DNA from: Gemmatimonadota bacterium
GTDB lineage: Bacteria; Gemmatimonadota; Gemmatimonadetes; Palauibacterales; Palauibacteraceae
Length of the DNA: 42,098 bases
Reading direction: 5' to 3'
NCBI GenBank assembly: GCA_029861425.1
Contig: JAOTZH010000009.1
Location: 1-42,098, forward strand
Shown here in pieces: positions 2,699 to 42,098 of this stretch. The position numbers and the translations under genes were made by a program. The notes under the pieces are model-generated. The model saw only the letters and a program-made list of their open reading frames with translations, made no database searches and was not told the DNA's origin. The number at the start of each line of letters is the position of its first letter. Position 1 is the stretch's first letter.

Positions 2699-5600
2699 GT
2701 GGGTGACTCCCCGCAGTCGACGACGCAACGATACCGACTCCGACTTTTCGGGGGCCTGGAGTTGCAGGGCCCCGACGGGCCTCTGCCTCGTCACGCGACG
2801 CAACCACGCCAGCTGGCGCTACTGGCGATCCTGGGAATGGCCGGCGAGGCCGGCTGCAGTCGCGACAAGCTCGTCGGGTGTCTATGGCCGGAGAGCCCCG
2901 AGGCCCCGGCGCGTCATTCGCTCGCTGACGCCGTATATCGCGTTCGCGCAGCGCTGGGGCGCCAAGCCCTCGCGGGCCAGGGTGTTCTGCGGCTGAACCC
3001 CGATCTCGTTCGGTGCGACGTCCGGGACTTCGAGGCCGCGCTCGACGCGAGGGACGGAGAGAAAGCCGTCGAGTTGTTCCGCGGAGTATTCCTCGACGGG
3101 TTCCACCTCCACCAGTCGAACGAGTTCGAGCAGTGGGTGGACGTCCAACGTCGACGCCTCGGAAATCGCTATGCGGAGTCGGTCGCCTTGCTGGGCCGGG
3201 CCGCTGCCGCCTCCGGGGACCACCAGCGAGCGGCTTCGTGGTGGCGTCGGCTGTCCGCGCACGACCCGTTCGATACCAGCGTCGCACTCCGCCTCATGGA
3301 GTCGATGACGCTCGCCGGGGACCCCGGAAACGCGCTCCTGCATGGTCAGGAACATTGTGAGGTCCTTCGAGACGCGCTCGGTATCGACCCGCCTGCCGAT
3401 CTCGTCGAGGCGATGGACCGCATCCGGGCCGGAGAGTCCGATGGGGCCGCCCCCCAGGACACGCACGCCGGGCTCGTCCGGATCCCGCGCCCCGTCGTCG
3501 ACGAGCTTGCCGCGCCTGTATTCGTCGCGCGCGAGTCGGAGATCCACCGCCTCAGCATGGCGCTGGAGGAGACGCTGCGGGGTCGGGGCCGGCTCGCGCT
3601 GATCACCGGGGAGGCGGGCACCGGGAAGAGCGCCCTCGCCGACGAATTCCGCCGAAGGAGTGTCGCGTCCGAGCCGGGCATTCTGGCGGTCACCTGCCGT
3701 TGCAACGCCCATACAGGTCCCGGCGATCCGTATCACCCCTTTCGCGAGCTTGCTGCCTCGCTAATGGGTGAGGCGCCACCGCATGGCCACGGCCCGATTA
3801 GCACCGGGCGGCGTGCGAGTGCATTCACCGACAGTGTGTCGGCCTTGATCGAGGAGGCACCGGATCTCATCGACACCATTGTGCCGGAAGCAACCCTCGC
3901 GGTTCGAGGTGGAGACGCGGCCCCGGGAGGAGCTCGTTGGGTGGACGACCTGGAGGCCCTCCGGAGGAAGCGGAACGAGGGTCCCCCTGGCGCGCCTCTG
4001 GAGCAGGCCGCGGTGTACGACCAGTACGTGCGGTGGCTCTTCGCCCTCGCGCGCGTGCGACCGCTGGTCATCTGTATAGACGATCTCCACTGGGGCGATT
4101 CGGGTTCGATCGGGCTGTTCTTCGAGCTGGGCCGACGCCTGGAAGGCGCCCGGATCCTCCTCATCGGCATCTACCGGAGCGAGGCCGTCGCACTCGGCAG
4201 GGGTGGGGATCGACATCCGATGGAACCGGTGGTAAACCAGCTCCGCCGTCTCTACGGAGACTGTGAGATCCGCCTCGGCGAGGAGGCTGACCCCGAGTTC
4301 GTCGAGGCTCTGGTGGACGCAGAGCCGAACCGGCTGGACCGCGCGTTCCGGGCCATGCTGTTCGAGTTCACACGAGGCCATGCCCTCTTTACCGTCGAAC
4401 TGCTCCGCGGGATGCGCGAGCGGGGGATGCTTGTTCGCGACGAAGATGACTTCTTGGTCGAGGGCCCCACGCTCACATGGTCGCGACTCCCCGCGCGGGT
4501 CGACGCGGTCATCGCCGAGCGGATCGGTCGAGTGTCGGCGTCGGGGCGTCGTGTGCTGGGGCTCGCCGCGGTCCAGGGCGAGGACTTCACGGTGGAGCTC
4601 GTGGCGGCCACCGATGGGCGCGAGGTCGACGATCTTGTCGACCTTCTGAGTGGCGAGCTGGAAAAGCGTCACCAGCTCGTCACCGCGACAGGGGTCCGTT
4701 CGGTCGAAGGCCGGCGGCGGCTGGGCTACCGATTCCGTCACATCATGATCCAGCAGTACGTCTACGCGAGTCTCGACGCGGTGGAACGGGTGCGTCTGCA
4801 CGAGCGCGTGGGGACCGCGCTCGAAGAGCTGTGCAGAGAGGAGATCGGCGAGGACGCGCCCCGGCTGGCGCGTCATTTTGGCGAAGCCAACCGGTGGGAC
4901 AAAGCCATCCGCTACCACCGGATCGCGGCCGAGCGAGCGAGGGATACCGGCGCGTTCGCCGAAGCGATTGCACACTTCAACCACGCGTTAGCGCTCGTGG
5001 GCAATCTGCCGGAGTCGGCGGAGCGAGACCGGCTCGAGCTCGACCTCCTGGCGGTACGCGGGACGATCTACTTCGGGAGCACGGGGCTCGGACTCGAGGA
5101 GGCGCGCCGGGCGCTGCAACGGGCGGAGGAGCTCGCGCGGAGGCTCGGCGACCGACCGCAATGGCTGCTGGCCCTCACTGGTCTATTCCAGCTGAATCAC
5201 CTGACGGCGCATCACCGGGAGGGGGGCGATCTCCTGTCGGAGGTGCGGCAGCACGCGCGCGAGGAAGCGGATACCGGGAGCCTGGTGCTCGTCGAGTGGT
5301 CGATGGGACTCAACTCGTTCAACCGGGGGCAGTTTGGCCATGCAGCGCGCTGCGTCAAGGAGGCCCTGGCGCTCCATGAAACGGCGGGCGACGATCCTCT
5401 GGTGCTCCACTTCGGGTACGACGTGGGCATCGTGACTCGCGGGCTTCACGCCCTCATCCTCACGCAACTGGGGTTCCCCGATCAGGCCCGCCGATTGAGC
5501 CGTGAGGCGGTCAGCCTGGCGGAGGAGGGCGGCCGGCCCCTCGCACGTCTCTTGATGCCCTCGTACAGGCTCTTCGTGGACGGGTGGCTGCGGGACGTAC

Positions 5601-29233: not shown

Positions 29234-30484
29234 CTACACGACGTGGCGTGGGAGGCGCGGGTTCATGCCCTGGATCAGAGCGAGGAAAGAGGTCCCGGTC
29301 CGTCGCGCGACCTCGTGCGGAAGGATCGACGGATGATCGGGTCCGACGAGGGTGACCGCGTCGCCGACCCGGACACTCCGCTCGTGGCCGACGTCGATAA
29401 TCGTGTGCGCCGAGTTCACGCCACCTCTGACGGGGTATAGCCGCCCGTTGATAAGGACTTCGCAGGTGCCGTTCGCCGCGCTCGGATAGCCATCGGTCCG
29501 TCCGATCGGAAGCAGCGCCACCCAGGTCGGGCTTTCGGGGGCAAATGAACGGTAGAAGCCCGCGCTGTCACCTCTTTCGAGCCGCTCGACGCGGACCACG
29601 CGAGTCCGTAACCGAAACACCGGCCGAAGGTCGGCCCGATCTCGCACATCCTCGCCGCTCGGGTAGTTGCCGAACAACGCGTTCCCCGGTCGTACCATGT
29701 CGTAGTGCGCCTCGGGGAGATGAAAGAGCTCGACCGTGGGAGAGGCGTGAAGGCTCCCGAGCTCGAGCCCCGCACCGCGCGCCCACTCCAGCAGCGACTC
29801 GAAACGGGCCAATTGCTCGCGATCGAAGTCCAGGTCATGCGAGAACATGGTGTAGGTGGCTTCGACCCGGACCGCGGGGTTGGAGCACAATTCTCCGATC
29901 CACGGGCGGGCGCGCCGGTACGGCATGCCCTCCCGGTTCATCCCCGTATCGACGTACAGCTGGACCGGGACGGGCCGGTCGAGTCGCCGCGCCACGCGCT
30001 CGAGCCGCTGCGGGGCGTCATCGAGCCAGACGCTCGGCGTCACGTCGTGGTGCACCATCTCCGCGATGGCGTCATCCGGCTGCTCGGCCATGACCACGAT
30101 CGGCTTCGTCACCCCGGCCTGTCGCATGGCCAGAGCCTCTTCGACTCGCACGCACGCTATGCCACCCACTTCCGGGAAGCTCGCGAGCAGCGGGCCGACC
30201 GTCCGATCGCCCAGCCCGTAGGCGTTGTTCTTCACGACCGCCAGGATGGGGCGACCGCCGGCGAGCCTCGCCGCCTCACGCACGTTCTGTCGATAGCCCG
30301 CGCGATCGATCTCGATCCACGGGTCGAGTCGGTCGCGGGAATCGACTTCGGATACGATCGATGTCGAACCCGGCTGGCTCCCGGCAGACGCGCACCCGGC
30401 GGTGGCGGCCAGCCCCGCGGCGCTTGCGGCGAGCTCGAGAAACCGGCGACGAGTGTGGGGGTGGGTTGAGACAGAGGGTGGCAT
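29234..30484 (-). CDS. Tat-exported alanine racemase homologue with altered active site
   Basis: 416-residue PLP protein of the alanine racemase fold. The N-terminus carries a twin-arginine signal (TRRRFLEL) and a lipobox-like end (TAGC, Cys31), so it is probably exported folded and lipid-anchored. The PLP lysine is Lys85 in VVKNNAYGLG, and the PLP-contacting Arg265 (DMVRPGNALFG) and Arg184 (DTGMNREGM) are kept. In E. coli Alr the second catalytic base is Tyr255 in GYGDGYP; here the motif reads GRTDGYP, with Arg329 in that place. The nearby GRVAMD-type motif is GGVNSAH. It may therefore be a racemase for another amino acid, a different PLP enzyme or a binding protein. The ATG at 30484 has TTGGAG before it. 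Confidence 0.88.
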   Translation of the reverse strand: MPPSVSTHPHTRRRFLELAASAAGLAATAGCASAGSQPGSTSIVSEVDSRDRLDPWIEIDRAGYRQNVREAARLAGGRPILAVVKNNAYGLGDRTVGPLLASFPEVGGIACVRVEEALAMRQAGVTKPIVVMAEQPDDAIAEMVHHDVTPSVWLDDAPQRLERVARRLDRPVPVQLYVDTGMNREGMPYRRARPWIGELCSNPAVRVEATYTMFSHDLDFDREQLARFESLLEWARGAGLELGSLHASPTVELFHLPEAHYDMVRPGNALFGNYPSGEDVRDRADLRPVFRLRTRVVRVERLERGDSAGFYRSFAPESPTWVALLPIGRTDGYPSAANGTCEVLINGRLYPVRGGVNSAHTIIDVGHERSVRVGDAVTLVGPDHPSILPHEVARRTGTSFLALIQGMNPRLPRHVV

Positions 30485-30684
30485 CGGCTCCAAGACTCCT
30501 CCATGGCCAGGGATCTGTGGACCGTCGCTCAGCATAGCCCCGGCGGACGGGCTGCGAACAGACGGTGGGCTGGATCCGCGACGCCCTCGCCCCCGAGACC
30601 GGTTGAGAGAAGAATACGAAGCGTATGTCGCCCGGGGACCACCGTACATCCCGCGGCTCAGCAGGTAGAGGAATAGGGGGGGGC

Positions 30685-36189: not shown

Positions 36190-36441
36190 ATGAGCGAGAT
36201 CCAGAGCACCGTGAAGAGCTATGTGCTCGAGGAGTTCCTGCCTGGCGAAAGCCCCGATGCGATGGACAATTCCACGCCGCTCATCTCGTCGGGCATCCTC
36301 GACTCGCTTTCCACGATTAAGCTCGTGAGTTTTCTCGAGGAGCAGTTCAATGTCCAGTTCGAGGCGCACGAGATAAGCCGGGAGAACCTCGATACGCTCG
36401 ATCTGATCGCGGCCACCGTAGAATCCAAGCGGCACGGGTGA
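36190..36441 (+). CDS. Peptidyl/acyl carrier protein
   Basis: 83-residue stand-alone carrier protein. The phosphopantetheine arm goes on Ser39 in GILDSLSTIKL (the LDSL motif). Its acidic helix II and the EEFLPGESPDAMDNSTPLISS start are like carrier proteins that work with stand-alone adenylation enzymes (PltL, DltC, RedO types). Its stop overlaps the next ATG by one base (TGATG), so the pair is coupled. It would hold the amino-acyl and then pyrrolyl group as a thioester while the following enzymes act. GAGGAGAGG is the ribosome site. No phosphopantetheinyl transferase is in the window. Confidence 0.93.
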   Translation: MSEIQSTVKSYVLEEFLPGESPDAMDNSTPLISSGILDSLSTIKLVSFLEEQFNVQFEAHEISRENLDTLDLIAATVESKRHG

Positions 36442-38024
36442 TGCCGGAGGCAACCTCGACGCTGGTCGGCCGTCTCGAGTCCCTCCTCAGGGACAGCGCG
36501 GAGCGATGGCCCGATCGAACTGCCGTCGAGGACCCCGCGACGGACGAGAGCCTGACGTACGTCGAGTTGGACGAGCTCTCGGATCGCCATGCCGAGGCCC
36601 TCCGAAACGTGGGTGTGCGGGCGGGCGAAAGGGTCGGTCTCGCCGTGCCCAAGCGCGTCGACACGGTCGCCTGGGTTTTCGGAATCATGAAGGCGGGGGC
36701 AGCCTACGTGCCTGTCGACCCCGACGCCCCGGCCGGCCGGTCCCGTGACATCTTCGTCGATTGTTCCGTGCGCGCGATCGTCTCAAACGCCGCGTTGGCC
36801 GACGCGCTCGCCACGGGGGCGGTGAACGGGTCCGCAGTCGACTCCTGCTGGGGTGAGCGCACGACCGTCAGTGAGGACGTTGTCCTTCTCGGCAAGGGGG
36901 GCCGGGCGGAGGAAGAAGACTTCGCAGACGACGCCGGAAATGACGCCCTCGCGTACATCCTCTACACCTCCGGCTCGACGGGGAAGCCGAAGGGCGTTAT
37001 GCACTCGCACTCCACCGCTCGCGCCTTCGTCGACTGGTGCTCCGGCATGTTCGACCCGACCGAGGAAGATCGATTCAGCTCGCACGCCCCCTTCCACTTC
37101 GACCTCTCGATCTTCGATCTCTACGTTGCGATCAAGCATGGCGGGGCAGTCGTTCTCATCGGCGAGACCAGTGGGAAGTCTCCGCTCCAGCTGGCCGAGA
37201 TCGCATCGGACCGGGAGATCAGCGTGTGGTACTCCACACCGACGGTCCTTCGCCTGATGATCGATTACGGTCGTATGGAAGGTCGCGACTTCGGCCACCT
37301 GCGCATGGTGTTCTTCGCAGGCGAGGTGTTCCCGATCGGACACCTCCGCCGGCTCAAGGAGATCTGGACGGAGCCGCGCTTCTTCAACCTCTACGGTCCG
37401 ACCGAGACGAACGTCTGCACGTGGTACGAGGTCCCCGCCCGCCTGCCCGATGACCGGCTCGATCCGGTCCCGATCGGGCGCCCCTCCTCGGGCGACGTGT
37501 GTCGGGTGGTCGACCCGAGCGGCACCACGGTCGCTCCCGGTGAGGAGGGCGAGCTCGTAGTCGCCGGCGGTTCGGTGATGCTGGGATATTGGAGTCGTCC
37601 CGACCGGACCGCCGAAGCCACCCTGGTCGATGCGGAGGGCGTGTCATGGTATCGAACCGGCGACGTGGTCCGGGAAGACGATGGCGGCGACTACGTCTTC
37701 CTTGGTCGTCGAGATCGCATGGTCAAACGACGTGGTTACCGGGTGGAACTGGGCGAGATCGAGTCGGCGCTGTATCGGCACGACGAGATCGTAGAGGCCG
37801 CGGTGGTGGCCACCCCGGACGACGAGAGCGGTGTGCTGGTCACCGCGTTTCTCACGTGGTCGGGCGAGGACAAGCCGTCGCTGATCAAGCTGAAGCAGCA
37901 CTGCGCGCAGAACCTGCCTGCATACATGGTGCCCGATGCCTTCGTCACGGTCGACGACCTCCCGAAGACCTCCACCGACAAGATCGACTATCAGCGGCTG
38001 AGAGCCGACGTAGTGCGCTCATGA
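36441..38024 (+). CDS. Stand-alone amino acid adenylation enzyme (PltF-like)
   Basis: 527-residue adenylation enzyme that activates a carboxylic acid with ATP and loads it on the carrier protein. Core motifs: YILYTSGSTGKPKGVMHSH (P-loop), NLYGPTETNV, GELVVAGG, YRTGDVV, GRRDRMVKRRGYRVELGEIE and the Lys in KTSTDKIDY. By-eye alignment to GrsA gives substrate-pocket residues Asp235, Leu236, Phe239, Tyr278, Phe299, Ala301, Leu322, Val330, Cys331. As I recall, the proline-activating enzymes of pyrrole pathways (PltF, RedM) read DLLYLALVC, so six or seven of the nine agree. That points to L-proline. The order in the operon agrees. Start at 36441 or the GTG three bases before. Confidence 0.92.
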   Translation: MPEATSTLVGRLESLLRDSAERWPDRTAVEDPATDESLTYVELDELSDRHAEALRNVGVRAGERVGLAVPKRVDTVAWVFGIMKAGAAYVPVDPDAPAGRSRDIFVDCSVRAIVSNAALADALATGAVNGSAVDSCWGERTTVSEDVVLLGKGGRAEEEDFADDAGNDALAYILYTSGSTGKPKGVMHSHSTARAFVDWCSGMFDPTEEDRFSSHAPFHFDLSIFDLYVAIKHGGAVVLIGETSGKSPLQLAEIASDREISVWYSTPTVLRLMIDYGRMEGRDFGHLRMVFFAGEVFPIGHLRRLKEIWTEPRFFNLYGPTETNVCTWYEVPARLPDDRLDPVPIGRPSSGDVCRVVDPSGTTVAPGEEGELVVAGGSVMLGYWSRPDRTAEATLVDAEGVSWYRTGDVVREDDGGDYVFLGRRDRMVKRRGYRVELGEIESALYRHDEIVEAAVVATPDDESGVLVTAFLTWSGEDKPSLIKLKQHCAQNLPAYMVPDAFVTVDDLPKTSTDKIDYQRLRADVVRS

Positions 38025-38052
38025 CCCCTACGAATCCACTGGAGCACGCGAG

Positions 38053-39393
38053 ATGAGCGGAGACGGAGCCATGTTCGACGTTGCGATCATCGGCGGTGGA
38101 CCCGCCGGATCGTCGACGGCGGCGTATCTGGCGAAGGGCGGGCTGTCGTGCGTCGTCCTCGAGCGGGAGCGGTTCCCGCGCGAGCACGTCGGGGAGTCGC
38201 TCGTACCCTCGACCACGAGGGTGTTCAAAGAGCTCGGTTTCCTCGACAAGATGGAAGAGGCCGGGTTCCCGCATAAGTACGGGGCCGCCTGGACGACCAG
38301 CGGCGATCACCCGACCTACTCGCACGACTGGGGGGACATCGATCCGGACTGCTACGTCTCCGTACGCTTCGAGGAGCGTACGCAGGAAGGGGTCAGCCAG
38401 AACTACACGTATCACGTCGACCGCGCGAAGTTCGACGAGATGCTGCTCAAACACGCCGAAGGCCTCGGTGCGACGGTCTGGCAGGGCACGGTCGTTCGCG
38501 GCGTGGACCTGGACGGCCCCGACGGGAGCGTCGTCGTCACGTACGCGCGGGACGGCGAGGAACAGGAGTTGACAGCGCGCATGCTGGTGGACGCCAGCGG
38601 CCGGCGGGCATTCCTCGGCAACCGGCTCGACCTGAAGGTGACCGATTCGGTGTTCGACCAGTACGCGATCCACACGTGGTTCGACGGCTATGAGAGGGAG
38701 TCCGGTCCGGAGGGCGACTACATCTTCATCCACTTCCTGCCCGTCACCAACACGTGGGTGTGGCAGATCCCGATCACGGACTCGATCACGAGCTTCGGCG
38801 TGGTCACGCAGAAGATGAACTTCAAGGCCGCGAGCGCGTCGATGGACGAGTTCTTCTGGGAGTGCATGAAGAGTCGGCCCGAGCTCTACGAGAAGCTCAA
38901 GGCGTCGCGGCAGCTCCGGCCACTCAAGCCCGAAGGAGACTACAGCTACGCCATGAAGAGGTTCTGTGGCGATCGCTTCGTCCTCGTCGGGGACGCGGCG
39001 CGCTTCGTGGATCCTATCTTCTCCAGCGGGGTCAGCATCGCGCTGACGAGTGGCAAGCTGGCCAGCCAGGCCATCCTCGCCGCTGCTGAGGCGGGCGATT
39101 TCTCCCGCTCCCGATTCGATGAGTTCGAGCGGACTATGAAGGCGGGGTGCGAACACTGGTACGAGTTCATCACGTTGTACTATCGCCTGAACGTGCTGTT
39201 TACGTACTTCATCTCCGACCCGAAGTACCGGCTCGACATTCTCCGTCTTCTGCAGGGAGATGTGTACGATGAGGAGAAGCCGCCCGTGTTGCAGAAGATG
39301 CGAGACATGGTGACCCAGGTCGAGGAGAACCCGGGGCACGTGTGGCACGATCTGCTCGGCAGTCTCACGGCAGAGAGCCTCCGGGAAACCTAG
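38053..39393 (+). CDS. Flavin-dependent halogenase acting on a carrier-bound substrate
   Basis: 446-residue FADH2-dependent halogenase. The FAD fold is GGGPAGSSTAAYLAKGG (14-30) and GDAARFVDP (313-321). The halogenase signature WxWxIP is exact: TWVWQIP at 234-240. Lys75 in FPHKYGAAW is the candidate haloamine lysine, and FVDPIFSSGVS matches the FxxPxxSxG motif of the subgroup acting on phenols and carrier-tethered pyrroles (PltA, Bmp2). It expects reduced flavin from a separate reductase, not seen here. Chloride versus bromide cannot be told. The start 38053 has GGAG before it; ATG at 38071 is also possible. It follows the adenylation gene after 28 bases. Confidence 0.9.
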   Translation: MSGDGAMFDVAIIGGGPAGSSTAAYLAKGGLSCVVLERERFPREHVGESLVPSTTRVFKELGFLDKMEEAGFPHKYGAAWTTSGDHPTYSHDWGDIDPDCYVSVRFEERTQEGVSQNYTYHVDRAKFDEMLLKHAEGLGATVWQGTVVRGVDLDGPDGSVVVTYARDGEEQELTARMLVDASGRRAFLGNRLDLKVTDSVFDQYAIHTWFDGYERESGPEGDYIFIHFLPVTNTWVWQIPITDSITSFGVVTQKMNFKAASASMDEFFWECMKSRPELYEKLKASRQLRPLKPEGDYSYAMKRFCGDRFVLVGDAARFVDPIFSSGVSIALTSGKLASQAILAAAEAGDFSRSRFDEFERTMKAGCEHWYEFITLYYRLNVLFTYFISDPKYRLDILRLLQGDVYDEEKPPVLQKMRDMVTQVEENPGHVWHDLLGSLTAESLRET

Positions 39394-39400
39394 GATCTGA

Positions 39401-40549
39401 ATGGACTTTTCGTTCACCCCCGATCAGGAAGCGCTCCGCGACCAGATCCTGGAGTTCGCGACCCGCGAGCTCACGGAGGGCGCGATCGAGCGGGATCGAG
39501 GGGGCGTGTTCCCGCACGATCTGTGGGAGAAGTGTGGGGAGATGGGCCTTCAGGGCCTGCCGGTGCCCGAAAGTCACGGAGGCGTCGGACTCGACTCGTT
39601 GTCGACCGCGATCGCGCTCGAAGCCTTCGGCTACGGATGCCGCGATGGAGGCCTGGCGTTCGCGATCGGTGCACACCTCCTCGCATGCGTCATCCCCGTG
39701 TGGCGACACGGAAGCGAGGAGCTCAAGGAACGGTATCTCCCGGGGCTGTCGAACGGCAGCCTGATCGCGGTCAACGCGATCACCGAGCCCGACTCCGGCT
39801 CCGACGCATTCGCGATGAAGACGCGGGCGGTGTCGGTCGAGGGCGGGTTCAGGATCGACGGGACGAAAACGTTCGCGTCGAACGGCCCTGTCGCGGACCT
39901 CGCGGTCGTCTACGCGGCCACCGACCCGGATCGGGGCTTTCTCGGGGGCATCACGGCGTTCCTGGTCGAGAAGGGAACGCCCGGGTTCTCGGTGGGACAG
40001 AAGTTCGAGAAGATGGGGCTTCGCACCGCGCCGCTCAGCGAGCTGGTGTTCGACGACGTGTTCGTGCCCGATGACTCCGTCATCGGGGGCGTGGGGGGCG
40101 GCGGACCGATCTTCAACCACTCGATGGAGTGGGAGCGGATCTGTCTTCCGGCGATTCACCTCGGGACGATGCGACACCTGCTGGACCGGGCCGTCGAGCA
40201 GGCCCGCACCCGGAAGGCGTTCGGCCAGTCGATCGGGAAGAACCAGGCGATCTCCCACCGGATCGCGGACCTCAAAGTGCGTCTCGAGGCCGCCCGGCTC
40301 CTCACCTACCGATCCGCGGAGCGTCTCGAGACGGCGGGCACCGTGGGGCTCGACGCTTCGATGACGAAGCTCCTGGTCAGCGAGTCGCTGGTCCGTAGCG
40401 CACTCGACGTCGTTCAGATCTTCGGTGGCTACGGGTACATGGACGAGTACGAGGTCGAACGAATACTGAGGGATTCGATCGGGAGCACGATCTACTCCGG
40501 AACGTCGGAGATGCAGCGCAACATCATCGCGGGGTGGCTGGGGCTCTGA
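39401..40549 (+). CDS. Acyl-CoA dehydrogenase-fold prolyl-carrier dehydrogenase (PltE/RedW-like)
   Basis: 382-residue FAD acyl-CoA dehydrogenase-fold enzyme. FAD and substrate motifs are AITEPDSGSDAFAMKT, FASNGP and the C-terminal SGTSEMQRNIIAGWLGL. The usual catalytic Glu near the end (IYEGTSE) is Ser366 here. Glu245 in MEWERICLP instead lies where isovaleryl-CoA dehydrogenase has its catalytic Glu254 (DLERLVL), a placement also used by prolyl-carrier dehydrogenases. It likely oxidises prolyl-S-carrier to pyrrolyl-2-carboxyl-S-carrier. It starts 7 bases after the halogenase; its TGA overlaps the next ATG (TGATG). Confidence 0.9.
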   Translation: MDFSFTPDQEALRDQILEFATRELTEGAIERDRGGVFPHDLWEKCGEMGLQGLPVPESHGGVGLDSLSTAIALEAFGYGCRDGGLAFAIGAHLLACVIPVWRHGSEELKERYLPGLSNGSLIAVNAITEPDSGSDAFAMKTRAVSVEGGFRIDGTKTFASNGPVADLAVVYAATDPDRGFLGGITAFLVEKGTPGFSVGQKFEKMGLRTAPLSELVFDDVFVPDDSVIGGVGGGGPIFNHSMEWERICLPAIHLGTMRHLLDRAVEQARTRKAFGQSIGKNQAISHRIADLKVRLEAARLLTYRSAERLETAGTVGLDASMTKLLVSESLVRSALDVVQIFGGYGYMDEYEVERILRDSIGSTIYSGTSEMQRNIIAGWLGL

Positions 40550-42098
40550 TGGGAGAATCGAATCGCGCGCTTCGACTCACCGTGAAGGTGGGCGGGCTGG
40601 GCTGTATCATCGCCGCCGTCTGGGCGGCAGTCGGCGGGTCCGGTCTCGGCACCCGACAGATCGCGCTGGGGCTCGTCGGTTATGCCCTTCTGGTCGGTGG
40701 CGACTGGCTGAGCTCGGACGACGAGACGAGAACGGGCGATGCCGTCCAGCACCTGGCGATCGCGGCGCTGCTCGGCCTCCTCATGGTCGTGATCCGCGAC
40801 TGGCGCATCGAAGGAGTGGCGTTCGCCGACCGTCTGGCGCCCATCATCTTCTTCGGGTTCCTCGTCCACCACTCGCTCCGACTGAGCTGGCGTCCGACTG
40901 TCTTCTTGCTGCTGTCCGTGACCGCGATCACATCGATCTTCGGTCTTGCGAACGGCGGGTGGATGATCGCGATCGGGTTGGGGCTGGTGGGCCTGTGCCA
41001 CCTCCCGATCCCGTGGTGGCCTCGCATGGGCCTGGTCGCGGCAGCCGGGACGACGCTCGCGGTGATGCGCGGTGGCGGGCTGGAAGCGCCATGGCCCTCG
41101 GCGATTTGGCCCATTCTGGCGTCGCTCTTCATGTTTCGGCTGGTCGTCTATCTGTACGACCTAAGACACGACAACGTGCCGGACTCGTGGCCTCACCGAC
41201 TGTCGTATTTCTTCCTGCTCCCCAACCCGGCGTTCCCGCTCTTCCCGGTCGTCGACGCGCAGACGTACTTCCGGCAGTACTACCGCGAGGACGCGACCAA
41301 GCTCTACATGCGCGGCGTGACGTGGATGACCCGCGGCATCCTGCATCTGCTCCTCTACCGCGTGATCTATCAGGAACTGTCGATGTCCGCGGTGGACGTG
41401 CAGACGGGCGGCCAGCTGGCGCTCTACCTCGTGACGAACTTCGGGCTCTATCTGCGCATCTCCGGGCAGTTTCACCTCGCCATTGGCGTGCTCCACCTCT
41501 TCGGGCATGGCCTGCCGTTGACCAACAACTGGTACTGGCTCTCGTCGAGCTTCGCGGACCTGTGGAGACGGATAAACATCTACTGGAAGGAGTTCATGCA
41601 GAAGGTGGTCTTCTTCCCCGTCTTCATGAAGATCCGGACGTGGCCGCTGGGAGAGACGGCAGCCGTCGTCGCTGCTTCGCTGGTCGTGTTCGTCACGACG
41701 TGGTTTTTGCACTCCTACCAGTGGTTCTGGATTCTCGGAACGTGGCTGATCTCCGGGCCCGACATCCTGTTCTGGTCCATCCTTGCCGTGCTGATGACAG
41801 CCAACACCCTCTGGGAGCGCCGTGCGGGCGCGCGCAAGCGTCTGCCGGGCGGACTCACGGTCCGGGATCGCGTCTGGCTGGCGCTCCGCACAGTCGGTGT
41901 GTTCAGCGTCATGAGTGTCCTGTGGTCGCTCTGGAACAGTCCGTCGATCGGCCAGTTCTTCCAGTTGTTCGGCGTGGTCGAGTGGGGCCGTGTCGAGGTC
42001 TGGTTGTGGCTGGTGGCCTACGTGGGCGTGGCCGGCCTTGTCTTCACGATCGCTCGGACCGCCTCCGACTCGGGTCTCACGCTGGGCTCTCCGAAAAC
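40549..42098 (+). CDS. MBOAT-family acyltransferase with extended N-terminus (3' end cut by window edge)
   Basis: More than 516 residues, open to the right edge with no stop. The N-terminal ~190 residues are membrane helices not usual in short MBOATs. The core shows RLVVYLYDLRHDN, FLLPNPAFPLFPVVDAQTYF, TNNWYWLSSSFADLWRRINIYW and TTWFLHSYQWFWILG, where His388 is the expected MBOAT histidine. Such enzymes (DltB, AlgI, PatA types) move acyl groups from an inner donor to an outer acceptor, or to a lipid. DltB takes D-alanine from the carrier DltC; here the carrier operon is coupled to this gene by a TGATG overlap, so it probably takes the pyrrolyl group from the carrier protein. The acceptor is unknown. 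Confidence 0.88.
   Translation, partial: MGESNRALRLTVKVGGLGCIIAAVWAAVGGSGLGTRQIALGLVGYALLVGGDWLSSDDETRTGDAVQHLAIAALLGLLMVVIRDWRIEGVAFADRLAPIIFFGFLVHHSLRLSWRPTVFLLLSVTAITSIFGLANGGWMIAIGLGLVGLCHLPIPWWPRMGLVAAAGTTLAVMRGGGLEAPWPSAIWPILASLFMFRLVVYLYDLRHDNVPDSWPHRLSYFFLLPNPAFPLFPVVDAQTYFRQYYREDATKLYMRGVTWMTRGILHLLLYRVIYQELSMSAVDVQTGGQLALYLVTNFGLYLRISGQFHLAIGVLHLFGHGLPLTNNWYWLSSSFADLWRRINIYWKEFMQKVVFFPVFMKIRTWPLGETAAVVAASLVVFVTTWFLHSYQWFWILGTWLISGPDILFWSILAVLMTANTLWERRAGARKRLPGGLTVRDRVWLALRTVGVFSVMSVLWSLWNSPSIGQFFQLFGVVEWGRVEVWLWLVAYVGVAGLVFTIARTASDSGLTLGSPK

Follow-up and report, generated by a model that had tools for sequence, protein, structure and literature searches.

A probable Dlt-like operon for transmembrane transfer of pyrrole-2-carboxyl groups in a Gemmatimonadota bacterium

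Five adjoining genes at the end of a contig of an uncultured Gemmatimonadota bacterium (JAOTZH010000009.1) encode a carrier protein, an adenylation enzyme, a halogenase, a dehydrogenase and a membrane acyltransferase of the MBOAT family, all on the plus strand. The operon probably specifies a Dlt-like transmembrane acylation machine, which would move a pyrrole-2-carboxyl group, in this genome probably a halogenated one, from the carrier to an extracytoplasmic acceptor. In this gene set, enzymes known from pyrrole antibiotics are coupled to Dlt-like export machinery. The original prediction that such a system had not been described is borne out among the top-ranked literature matches, in which we found no account of pyrrole-carrier genes combined with an MBOAT-SGNH protein (subscription papers fell mostly outside the coverage). 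To our knowledge, the groups that known transmembrane acylations place on bacterial polymers are small, acetyl and D-alanine among them. If our reading is true, bacterial surfaces could display aromatic, even halogenated, acyl groups.

The window analysed is the entire contig, C178, of 42,098 nucleotides. The gene arrangement was as had been predicted, with two pairs joined by TGATG and one 7-base gap. The carrier and adenylation genes overlap in this way, as do the dehydrogenase and MBOAT genes (MBOAT start ATG at 40549), while the halogenase gene follows the adenylation gene after 28 bases and precedes the dehydrogenase gene by 7. The MBOAT frame is still open at the contig end, 42098. The features are as follows.

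36190..36441, plus strand: peptidyl carrier protein, 83 aa (PF00550; PDB matches including PltL, PigG and D-alanyl carrier proteins)
36304-36306, plus strand: presumed phosphopantetheine Ser39 of the carrier, in GILDSL (read off the sequence)
36441..38024, plus strand: stand-alone L-prolyl adenylation enzyme, 527 aa (TIGR01733; 6o6e (PltF); code DLFYFALVCK)
38053..39393, plus strand: FADH2-dependent pyrrolyl-carrier halogenase, 446 aa (matches to 5buk, PltA and ChlB4)
38755-38772, plus strand: WVWQIP motif of the halogenase (from the sequence)
39401..40549, plus strand: probable prolyl-carrier dehydrogenase of 382 aa with an acyl-CoA dehydrogenase fold (4irn, 5zw0; NCBIfam PigA)
40549..42098, plus strand: MBOAT-SGNH acyltransferase gene, 5' part, MBOAT half (open frame; homologues; fold)
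41473-41475 and 41710-41712, plus strand: two invariant histidines of the MBOAT half (alignment of homologues)
C222:1-1113 (locus L160), outside the window: probable 3' end of the MBOAT-SGNH gene, encoding the SGNH half and its GYYE motif (homology)

The cytoplasmic enzymes

The closest PDB relatives of each cytoplasmic enzyme are solved pyrrolyl-carrier enzymes, as the best match or among the best, and the scores against proteins of the PltF/PltL/PltE/PltA type lie far above chance, which upholds the identities originally predicted. The carrier matches Pfam PF00550, has the DSL serine and is encoded directly before the A-domain gene. It scores below the curated NCBIfam cut-offs, those of the DltC models included, and its nearest model, at 106 bits against a cut-off of 130, takes its name from the synthesis of ornithine lipids. 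Among the PDB matches of the adenylation enzyme the best stand-alone enzyme was the L-prolyl ligase 6o6e (344 bits), which is taken as PltF since its partner chain is PltL. The core of its code, LFYFALVC, is a single residue (L to F) off L(L/F)YLALVC, the consensus for stand-alone L-proline enzymes given in PMC3874040; the consensus was exact in 23 of 35 members and one residue off in 12, the window's enzyme included. This proline-type code and the score for the DltA equivalog, 269 bits with a cut-off of 559.85, speak against an identity as DltA, activating D-alanine.

For the dehydrogenase the best matches were the solved prolyl dehydrogenases 4irn (343 bits) and 5zw0 (340 bits); its scores stayed under the NCBIfam curated cut-offs for PigA (444, cut-off 500) and RedW (403, cut-off 650). 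The halogenase matched 5buk, which we take to be Mpy16, with 560 bits, PltA with 546 and ChlB4 with 541, the next best match reaching 177. In the pathway that we infer, the adenylation enzyme would activate L-proline in the cytoplasm and load it onto the carrier, and the dehydrogenase would convert the prolyl-S-carrier to pyrrole-2-carboxyl-S-carrier. In the window's genome the halogenase would then chlorinate or brominate the ring on the carrier.

Relatives and gene linkage

A scan of named genomes gave 237 relatives, and records were retrieved for 78 of them. Ninety-one loci were examined, leaving out seven duplicate loci and four weak class matches to the MBOAT (G287, G371, G380 and G383; E 2e-7 to 4e-4). 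The record titles cover nine phyla, and no Firmicute title occurs among the 78 (one record has no phylum in its title), a point of difference from Dlt. Carrier, adenylation and dehydrogenase genes stand beside the MBOAT gene in 46 of the 91 loci, in the order MBOAT-PCP-A-DH in 30 of these 46. None of the three partners was found in 23 of the 91 loci, several of which are cut contigs. Among wide loci, which extend at least 5 kb on each side, five of 46 likewise had no partner, and after removal of 11 near relatives all three partners were kept in 26 of 35.

Within the class, the MBOAT and the prolyl dehydrogenase occur together in 10 of 394 genomes where 0.6 would be expected (hypergeometric 1e-12). 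This test counted 15 strong MBOAT holders, with the same four weak matches excluded, and 16 dehydrogenase holders, six of which have no strong MBOAT match. MBOAT, A-domain and dehydrogenase distances are correlated across 37 loci, seven near relatives having been left out (Spearman 0.70-0.77; 0 of 999 permutations as high), a correlation which shared host descent could also give. Separation of the genes does not equal absence, as G364 has the MBOAT on one contig and the A-domain, carrier and dehydrogenase on another, and G155 and G331 have the dehydrogenase on a separate contig. A chance placement of the MBOAT next to pyrrole genes was ruled out by the linkage, the distance correlation and the genome co-occurrence. 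The predicted conservation of the MBOAT with its partners holds for the carrier, adenylation and dehydrogenase genes, while the idea of five genes kept together across genomes failed for the halogenase, a pyrrole-type enzyme being present in just 4 of the 91 loci.

Pyrrolyl-S-carrier pathways of the PltF/PltL/PltE/PltA type are familiar from pyoluteorin, prodigiosins, clorobiocin and pyrrole halogenation. The A-domain and carrier here belong to the same families, as do the halogenase where it occurs and, probably, the dehydrogenase, but the acyl group would reach a membrane acyltransferase and not a polyketide synthase or aminocoumarin transferase. Halogenation as the core function was rejected on the four loci noted above, and given this rarity most systems would move unhalogenated pyrrole-2-carboxyl. 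Optional ring enzymes elsewhere perhaps include a Rieske ring-hydroxylating oxygenase (Methylomonas) and an O-methyltransferase (an Acidobacterium). The halogenase's closest relative in the class (66%) comes from a genome that has no strong MBOAT match; its neighbours there are carrier, dehydrogenase and A-domain genes.

The full gene set is found in cultured species, e.g. Aromatoleum anaerobium and Mesorhizobium muleiense, and in Singulisphaera acidiphila, also cultured, the parts are scattered; PMC12493201 reports the deletion of genes in the latter species. With such hosts the system is testable now.

The MBOAT-SGNH protein

The MBOAT protein of the window had no Pfam or NCBIfam match, and its assignment comes from a structure model of a full-length homologue, P0006 (pLDDT 90.5, pTM 0.88). 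Foldseek placed DltB first (E 8.6e-7), then PORCN and HHAT, while the lower matches included thioesterase I of E. coli as well as GDSL esterases (170-220 residues); by size and fold of the targets, these matches were assigned to the two halves of the protein. The lead of DltB is small, with a TM-score by target of 0.63 against 0.65 for apo PORCN and an identity of 13%.

In the source genome a homologue matches two pieces, the MBOAT half in the window and an SGNH half that opens contig C222. The missing 3' part of the last gene very probably opens this contig and encodes the SGNH domain, and the gene is very probably an MBOAT-SGNH fusion with DltB-like and DltD-like parts in one chain; the link between C178 and C222 is drawn from homology. 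The SGNH half scores 30.6 bits against Pfam GDSL_2, just short of the cut-off of 32.9. The genes after it lie on the opposite strand, so that the operon, judged by strand, ends there. Of the genes that the original prediction sought past 42,098, the DltD-like part was located on C222, and by eye no separate DltD, flavin reductase or transporter lies on the same strand directly downstream there. SGNH and MBOAT are fused in 81 of the 91 loci. A class-wide SGNH search (E up to 1e-10) gave 11 matches in 9 of 295 genomes; in ten of these the SGNH part is linked to an MBOAT, and the remaining match is the half on C222. The predicted Dlt-like logic is strengthened by the fusion, by the C222 half and by the first rank of DltB in Foldseek.

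The MBOAT histidines H286 and H363 (P0006 numbering) are invariant in alignment A2 (73 of 73 rows). They may correspond to the active-site pair of DltB, given as His289 and His336 in PMC11035591. On the SGNH side, S641 and H840 are each conserved in 72 of 72 rows with a letter and D838 in 70 of 72. A further motif, GYYE, is invariant in the alignment (72 of 72 rows) and present in 84 of 85 full-length proteins. It lies in segment 550-560 of P0006, where pLDDT is under 50, 26 residues past the last hydrophobic segment; in the Singulisphaera loci, which have MBOAT and SGNH as separate genes, the SGNH chain carries it, preceded by a hydrophobic stretch at the N-terminus. GYYE is a candidate acyl-tyrosine shuttle, although it may alternatively serve the SGNH domain itself, in its structure or its active site. 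Unlike GYYE, the FXYXXF motif of DltX and PatA is not conserved, the pattern occurring somewhere in just 12 of the 85 proteins, and a conserved FXYXXF shuttle was dropped on this count.

The MBOAT half would accept the acyl group of the loaded carrier and pass it across the membrane to a tyrosine in the GYYE loop. The SGNH half would then, via its serine, esterify an extracytoplasmic acceptor at one of its hydroxyl groups; this acceptor is most likely a polysaccharide of the cell surface. Sequence and fold show which enzyme families are present, the proline-type code, the linkage of the genes, the invariant residues and, for the homologues, the fusion, whereas the reactions, the part played by the tyrosine and the acceptor are inferred.

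The acceptor and comparison with known systems

Some loci, in Mesorhizobium, Hyphomonas, Microvirga and others, sit amid glycan genes (glycosyltransferases, Wzx, Wzm/Wzt, pyruvyl transferase, O-antigen ligase family), which suggests a surface glycan as acceptor. The enrichment was not significant with iterated profiles: at least two glycan markers were present in 8 loci and in 3 control regions (40 of each; p = 0.096), and at least one in 8 and in 5 (p = 0.27). Loci under 15 kb were left out, and nine Mesorhizobium, Microvirga and Singulisphaera relatives were dropped to bring 49 loci to 40; before this step at least two markers were present in 13 of 49. An earlier seed search had found a glycosyltransferase in 13 of the 91 loci. 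A glycan acceptor as a proven conclusion was rejected on the two p values. Of the predicted decoration of a surface polymer, lipid or exported molecule, the Dlt-like machinery stands and the polymer as acceptor is suggested. It is a plausible but tentative proposal that there exists a widespread class of carrier-dependent MBOAT-SGNH fusions which would esterify extracytoplasmic glycans with pyrrole-2-carboxyl through a GYYE acyl-tyrosine, the ring being diversified by optional enzymes.

Glycan genes went undetected in many loci, and the same machine might serve a lipid, lipid A, an aminolipid or an exported small molecule; the operons placed among glycan genes speak against this, and we regard it as rather unlikely. 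A lipid would suit the carrier's nearest NCBIfam model and the layout in Singulisphaera acidiphila, where a GH3 gene fitting OlsH is some 3 kb away from the carrier gene and some 15 kb away from the dehydrogenase gene. That carrier gene, however, is outside the OlsH operon, with genes on both strands intervening, and the species has MBOAT genes and an A-domain gene of the present family elsewhere in the genome. Moreover, OlsH requires no acyl carrier protein according to PMC12493201.

It is improbable that the product is a free (halo)pyrrole acid or antibiotic-like compound released outside the cell by the SGNH part as a thioesterase or esterase. The thioesterase I and esterase fold matches would agree with release, as would the small-molecule-like cluster around the halogenase's class relative, but a soluble thioesterase would do for that purpose, whereas a DltB-like membrane fusion fits transmembrane transfer. 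The class SGNH matches are, moreover, MBOAT-joined apart from C222, and no polyketide or aminocoumarin partner was recognised in the neighbour lists inspected by eye. Some MBOAT-SGNH genes, mostly tandem copies (L060, L081, L091, L106, L117, L125), have no carrier genes beside them, as would be expected of a protein that moves another acyl group (e.g. acetyl from acetyl-CoA) and is a mere neighbour of the pyrrole genes. The prevailing gene order, the correlated distances and the genome-level co-occurrence make this very improbable, and in G364, G155 and G331 one or more partner genes are present on other contigs.

Transmembrane transfer of pyrrole-2-carboxyl, the preferred reading, describes a system that works like Dlt, yet is not a Dlt system. 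Both have an adenylation enzyme, a small carrier, an MBOAT and an SGNH part (Dlt comprising DltA, DltB, DltC, DltD and DltX), and the carrier gene adjoins the MBOAT gene. The present system differs in its proline-type code, where Dlt uses D-alanine, in the added dehydrogenase and, in some loci, halogenase, and in the fusion of MBOAT and SGNH. The transmembrane acylations of bacterial polymers described in PMC12148441 use small groups, e.g. acetyl and D-alanine. Among them, PatA/PatB peptidoglycan O-acetylation likewise combines an MBOAT and an SGNH protein with acyl-tyrosine and acyl-serine steps, but from acyl-CoA and with separate proteins, in contrast to the carrier gene and single fused protein here (PMC12148441). 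The operon, like most of the loci that have partner genes, includes a carrier gene, a gene content different from the carrier-free PatAB type. The OatA-type AT3-SGNH fusions in the same source also hold a membrane acyltransferase and an SGNH domain in one chain, although with an AT3 membrane half, not an MBOAT, and acetyl-CoA as donor (PMC12148441). The natural one-chain MBOAT-SGNH fusion should be useful for the question of how an acyl group passes between two active sites.

Operon layout and the probable terminal MBOAT-SGNH protein

The window comprises the whole of contig C178 from a draft genome of 3.85 Mb, and the five plus-strand genes originally predicted at 36190-42098 are all present. 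The junctions were also found as described: TGATG joins the carrier and adenylation genes and again the dehydrogenase and MBOAT genes, 7 bases separate halogenase from dehydrogenase, and the adenylation-halogenase spacer is 28 bases. Elsewhere in the window (29234-30649, minus strand) lies an alanine racemase gene (PF01168, PF00842), whose product has, by eye, an apparent N-terminal twin-arginine signal and lipobox, suggesting an exported enzyme.

The last protein (P0005), which the contig end truncates at 517 residues, had no match among Pfam or NCBIfam models. Its homologues are around 840-950 residues long, and in seven of eight tested the C-terminal part matched GDSL_2 at least weakly, above the cut-off in two. 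A homologue searched against the window's own genome returned two pieces, the MBOAT half in the window and a 370-residue piece with GYYE and SGNH motifs at the start of C222, a separate contig not joined to C178 in the assembly, so that their pairing comes from this search. This piece is very probably the DltD-like part to be sought beyond position 42,098. GDSL_2 scores 30.6 on this piece against a cut-off of 32.9, and the genes downstream of it lie on the opposite strand.

The AlphaFold2 model of a full-length homologue, P0006 (73-row alignment; pLDDT 90.5, pTM 0.88), has DltB as its top PDB match (E 8.6e-7, TM-score by target 0.63, 13% identity), followed by PORCN (TM-score up to 0.65) and HHAT, with thioesterase I and GDSL esterases lower; the half to which each match belongs was decided by size and fold. 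Two histidines are invariant (each 73/73 rows), GYYE is kept in 72/72, and the SGNH part keeps its serine (72/72), histidine (72/72) and aspartate (70/72). The last hydrophobic segment precedes GYYE by 26 residues, and model confidence around GYYE is low (pLDDT < 50). According to PMC12148441, DltX and PatA share a motif, FXYXXF, that serves as an acyl-tyrosine shuttle, and MBOAT/SGNH pathways other than Dlt work without a carrier. FXYXXF is unconserved in MBOAT-SGNH family members, and GYYE is a candidate for its shuttle counterpart. Tandem MBOAT-SGNH copies occur in seven loci (L060, L062, L081, L091, L092, L106, L125), mostly without nearby carrier genes.

The Dlt-like logic proposed for the operon is supported by DltB as the first fold match, the SGNH part and the presence of a carrier. 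The system resembles Dlt in its mode of working, and the pyoluteorin and prodigiosin pathways in how the acyl group is made, but as a whole is a member of none of these. In agreement with the original reading, no description of a carrier and pyrrole enzymes combined with MBOAT-SGNH was among the papers listed by the literature search, which is not proof of absence.

Predicted pyrrole enzymes and gene linkage

The closest solved structures to the halogenase are 5buk (which we take to be Mpy16), PltA and ChlB4 at 541-560 bits, the following match reaching 177 bits, and the WVWQIP motif is present. The dehydrogenase is closest to the prolyl dehydrogenases 4irn and 5zw0, with scores under the NCBIfam cut-offs. 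PltF (6o6e) is the top stand-alone match of the adenylation enzyme in both single-sequence and profile searches; gramicidin synthase, with two such domains, outscores it in total in both, and the peptide synthetase 8xjz reached 538 bits versus 482 for PltF in the profile search. The pocket code reads DLFYFALVCK, with positions mapped by eye on GrsA numbering. Stand-alone L-proline enzymes are assigned the code L(L/F)YLALVC in PMC3874040. Among 35 aligned members, 18 have DLLYLALVCK and five DLFYLALVCK; the other 12, including the window's, are one letter off. The carrier serine lies within GILDSL, and PDB matches place the carrier near PltL, PigG and D-alanyl carriers.

Linkage was surveyed in 91 loci (window included, seven duplicates removed). 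Carrier, adenylation and dehydrogenase genes were all present in 46, at least two in 58, at least one in 68 and none in 23. Where at least 5 kb was available on each side (n=46), 34 loci had all three and five had none; with 11 near relatives removed, 26/35 had all three. The order MBOAT-PCP-A-DH holds in 30 of the 46 full loci. Of the five genes proposed as a set, MBOAT, carrier, adenylation and dehydrogenase stay together in these 46 loci, and the halogenase, found as pyrrole-type in 4/91, is an accessory. MBOAT and SGNH form a single frame in 81/91 loci, and the ten exceptions comprise five Singulisphaera loci, where the two are separate genes, four loci with cut or broken frames, and the window itself.

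Across the window's class, strong MBOAT matches and prolyl dehydrogenases coincide in 10 genomes (15 and 16 holders of 394; hypergeometric 1e-12), counting the window's own genome, taking the two 394-genome searches as the same set and scoring at most four dehydrogenase candidates per genome; six of the 16 dehydrogenase holders have no strong MBOAT. MBOAT, adenylation and dehydrogenase distances correlate over 37 loci, which shared descent could also cause. The SGNH part was found in 9/295 class genomes (E up to 1e-10) at 11 places, ten joined to an MBOAT and the eleventh being C222. Genome G155 holds all five gene kinds on three contigs (C295, C307, C43; loci L043, L162, L163), its carrier and adenylation genes flanked by two MBOAT-SGNH genes.

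Optional tailoring genes and the likely acceptor

The four loci with pyrrole-type halogenases are the window, L084, L118 (424 and 474 bits, respectively, against the window's) and L092 (a fragment at a contig end), and the genes occupy at least three different positions. Weaker halogenase-like genes occur in L041, L045, L062 and L086. Methylomonas (L086) has, between carrier and adenylation genes, the genes for a Rieske ring-hydroxylating oxygenase (both subunits) and for a radical SAM protein; in L074 an O-methyltransferase gene occupies this place. Such optional enzymes may diversify the pyrrole ring.

In the L118 halogenase (2974-4293), the region that aligns with the FPRxxxGESL motif is missing, as judged by eye. 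A halogenase-like gene between carrier and dehydrogenase genes (L164:7825-9011) is split over two open frames, through decay or a sequencing fault. PF00999 Na+/H+ exchanger family genes adjoin halogenase or halogenase-like genes at L118:4300-5604, L163:8128-9423 and L041:3722-5035. L161 (G247:C20), which has no MBOAT, may be a separate halopyrrole cluster: carrier, dehydrogenase and adenylation genes accompany two halogenases of PltA type there, which score 66% and 51-52% against that of the window.

Judging from gene neighbourhoods, the acceptor would most likely be a surface glycan. Neighbouring gene products checked with Pfam include, in Mesorhizobium, glycosyltransferases, a Wzx flippase and a pyruvyl transferase; in Hyphomonas, a glycosyltransferase, Wzt and an ABC-2 transporter; in Microvirga, Wzx; in L055, UDP-GlcNAc epimerase; and in L067, an O-antigen ligase family protein and a pyruvyl transferase. 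In L043 and L047, Wzx is encoded next to the MBOAT gene. When profile-detected markers were compared between 40 loci spanning 15 kb or more and 40 control regions, at least two occurred in 8/40 versus 3/40 (p = 0.096) and at least one in 8/40 versus 5/40 (p = 0.27). The suggested surface-polymer acceptor is consistent with glycan genes around some loci, without significant enrichment over controls. Sulfatase-like (PF00884) proteins were found in 5/91 loci (L008, L034, L035, L041, L117) versus 0/40 controls, and sulfate-activation genes lie near in L008 and L164. Further PF00884 proteins occur in L162 and L223; such genes adjoin MBOAT or dehydrogenase genes, up to three consecutively, and the N-terminal part appears hydrophobic by eye.

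The closest NCBIfam model to six carriers tested was NF052616, 'ornithine lipid biosynthesis acyl carrier protein' (92-121 bits, cut-off 130), a family name that may rest on proximity. In S. acidiphila (G405; L223, L224), about 3 kb separate the carrier from a GH3 gene consistent with OlsH; the prolyl dehydrogenase is ~15 kb off, with PF01663 and PF00884 proteins near.

Distribution

The MBOAT was matched in 19/394 class genomes, strongly in 15 including the window's own; the other 16 genomes of its genus gave no match. Scanning named genomes yielded 282 candidate stretches and 237 relatives; the loci examined were the best 78 of these and those of the class. By our reading of record titles, which may mislead since many records are MAGs, these span nine phyla besides Deltaproteobacteria: Gemmatimonadota, Pseudomonadota, Acidobacteriota, Planctomycetota, the phylum of Rhodothermales, Hydrogenedentota, Verrucomicrobiota, Chloroflexota and Krumholzibacteriota. 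The dehydrogenase was absent from every examined locus of the last two. Relatives were also found in isolates, for example Aromatoleum anaerobium, Pseudothauera rhizosphaerae, Methylomonas, Hyphomonas johnsonii, Microvirga, Mesorhizobium and Singulisphaera.
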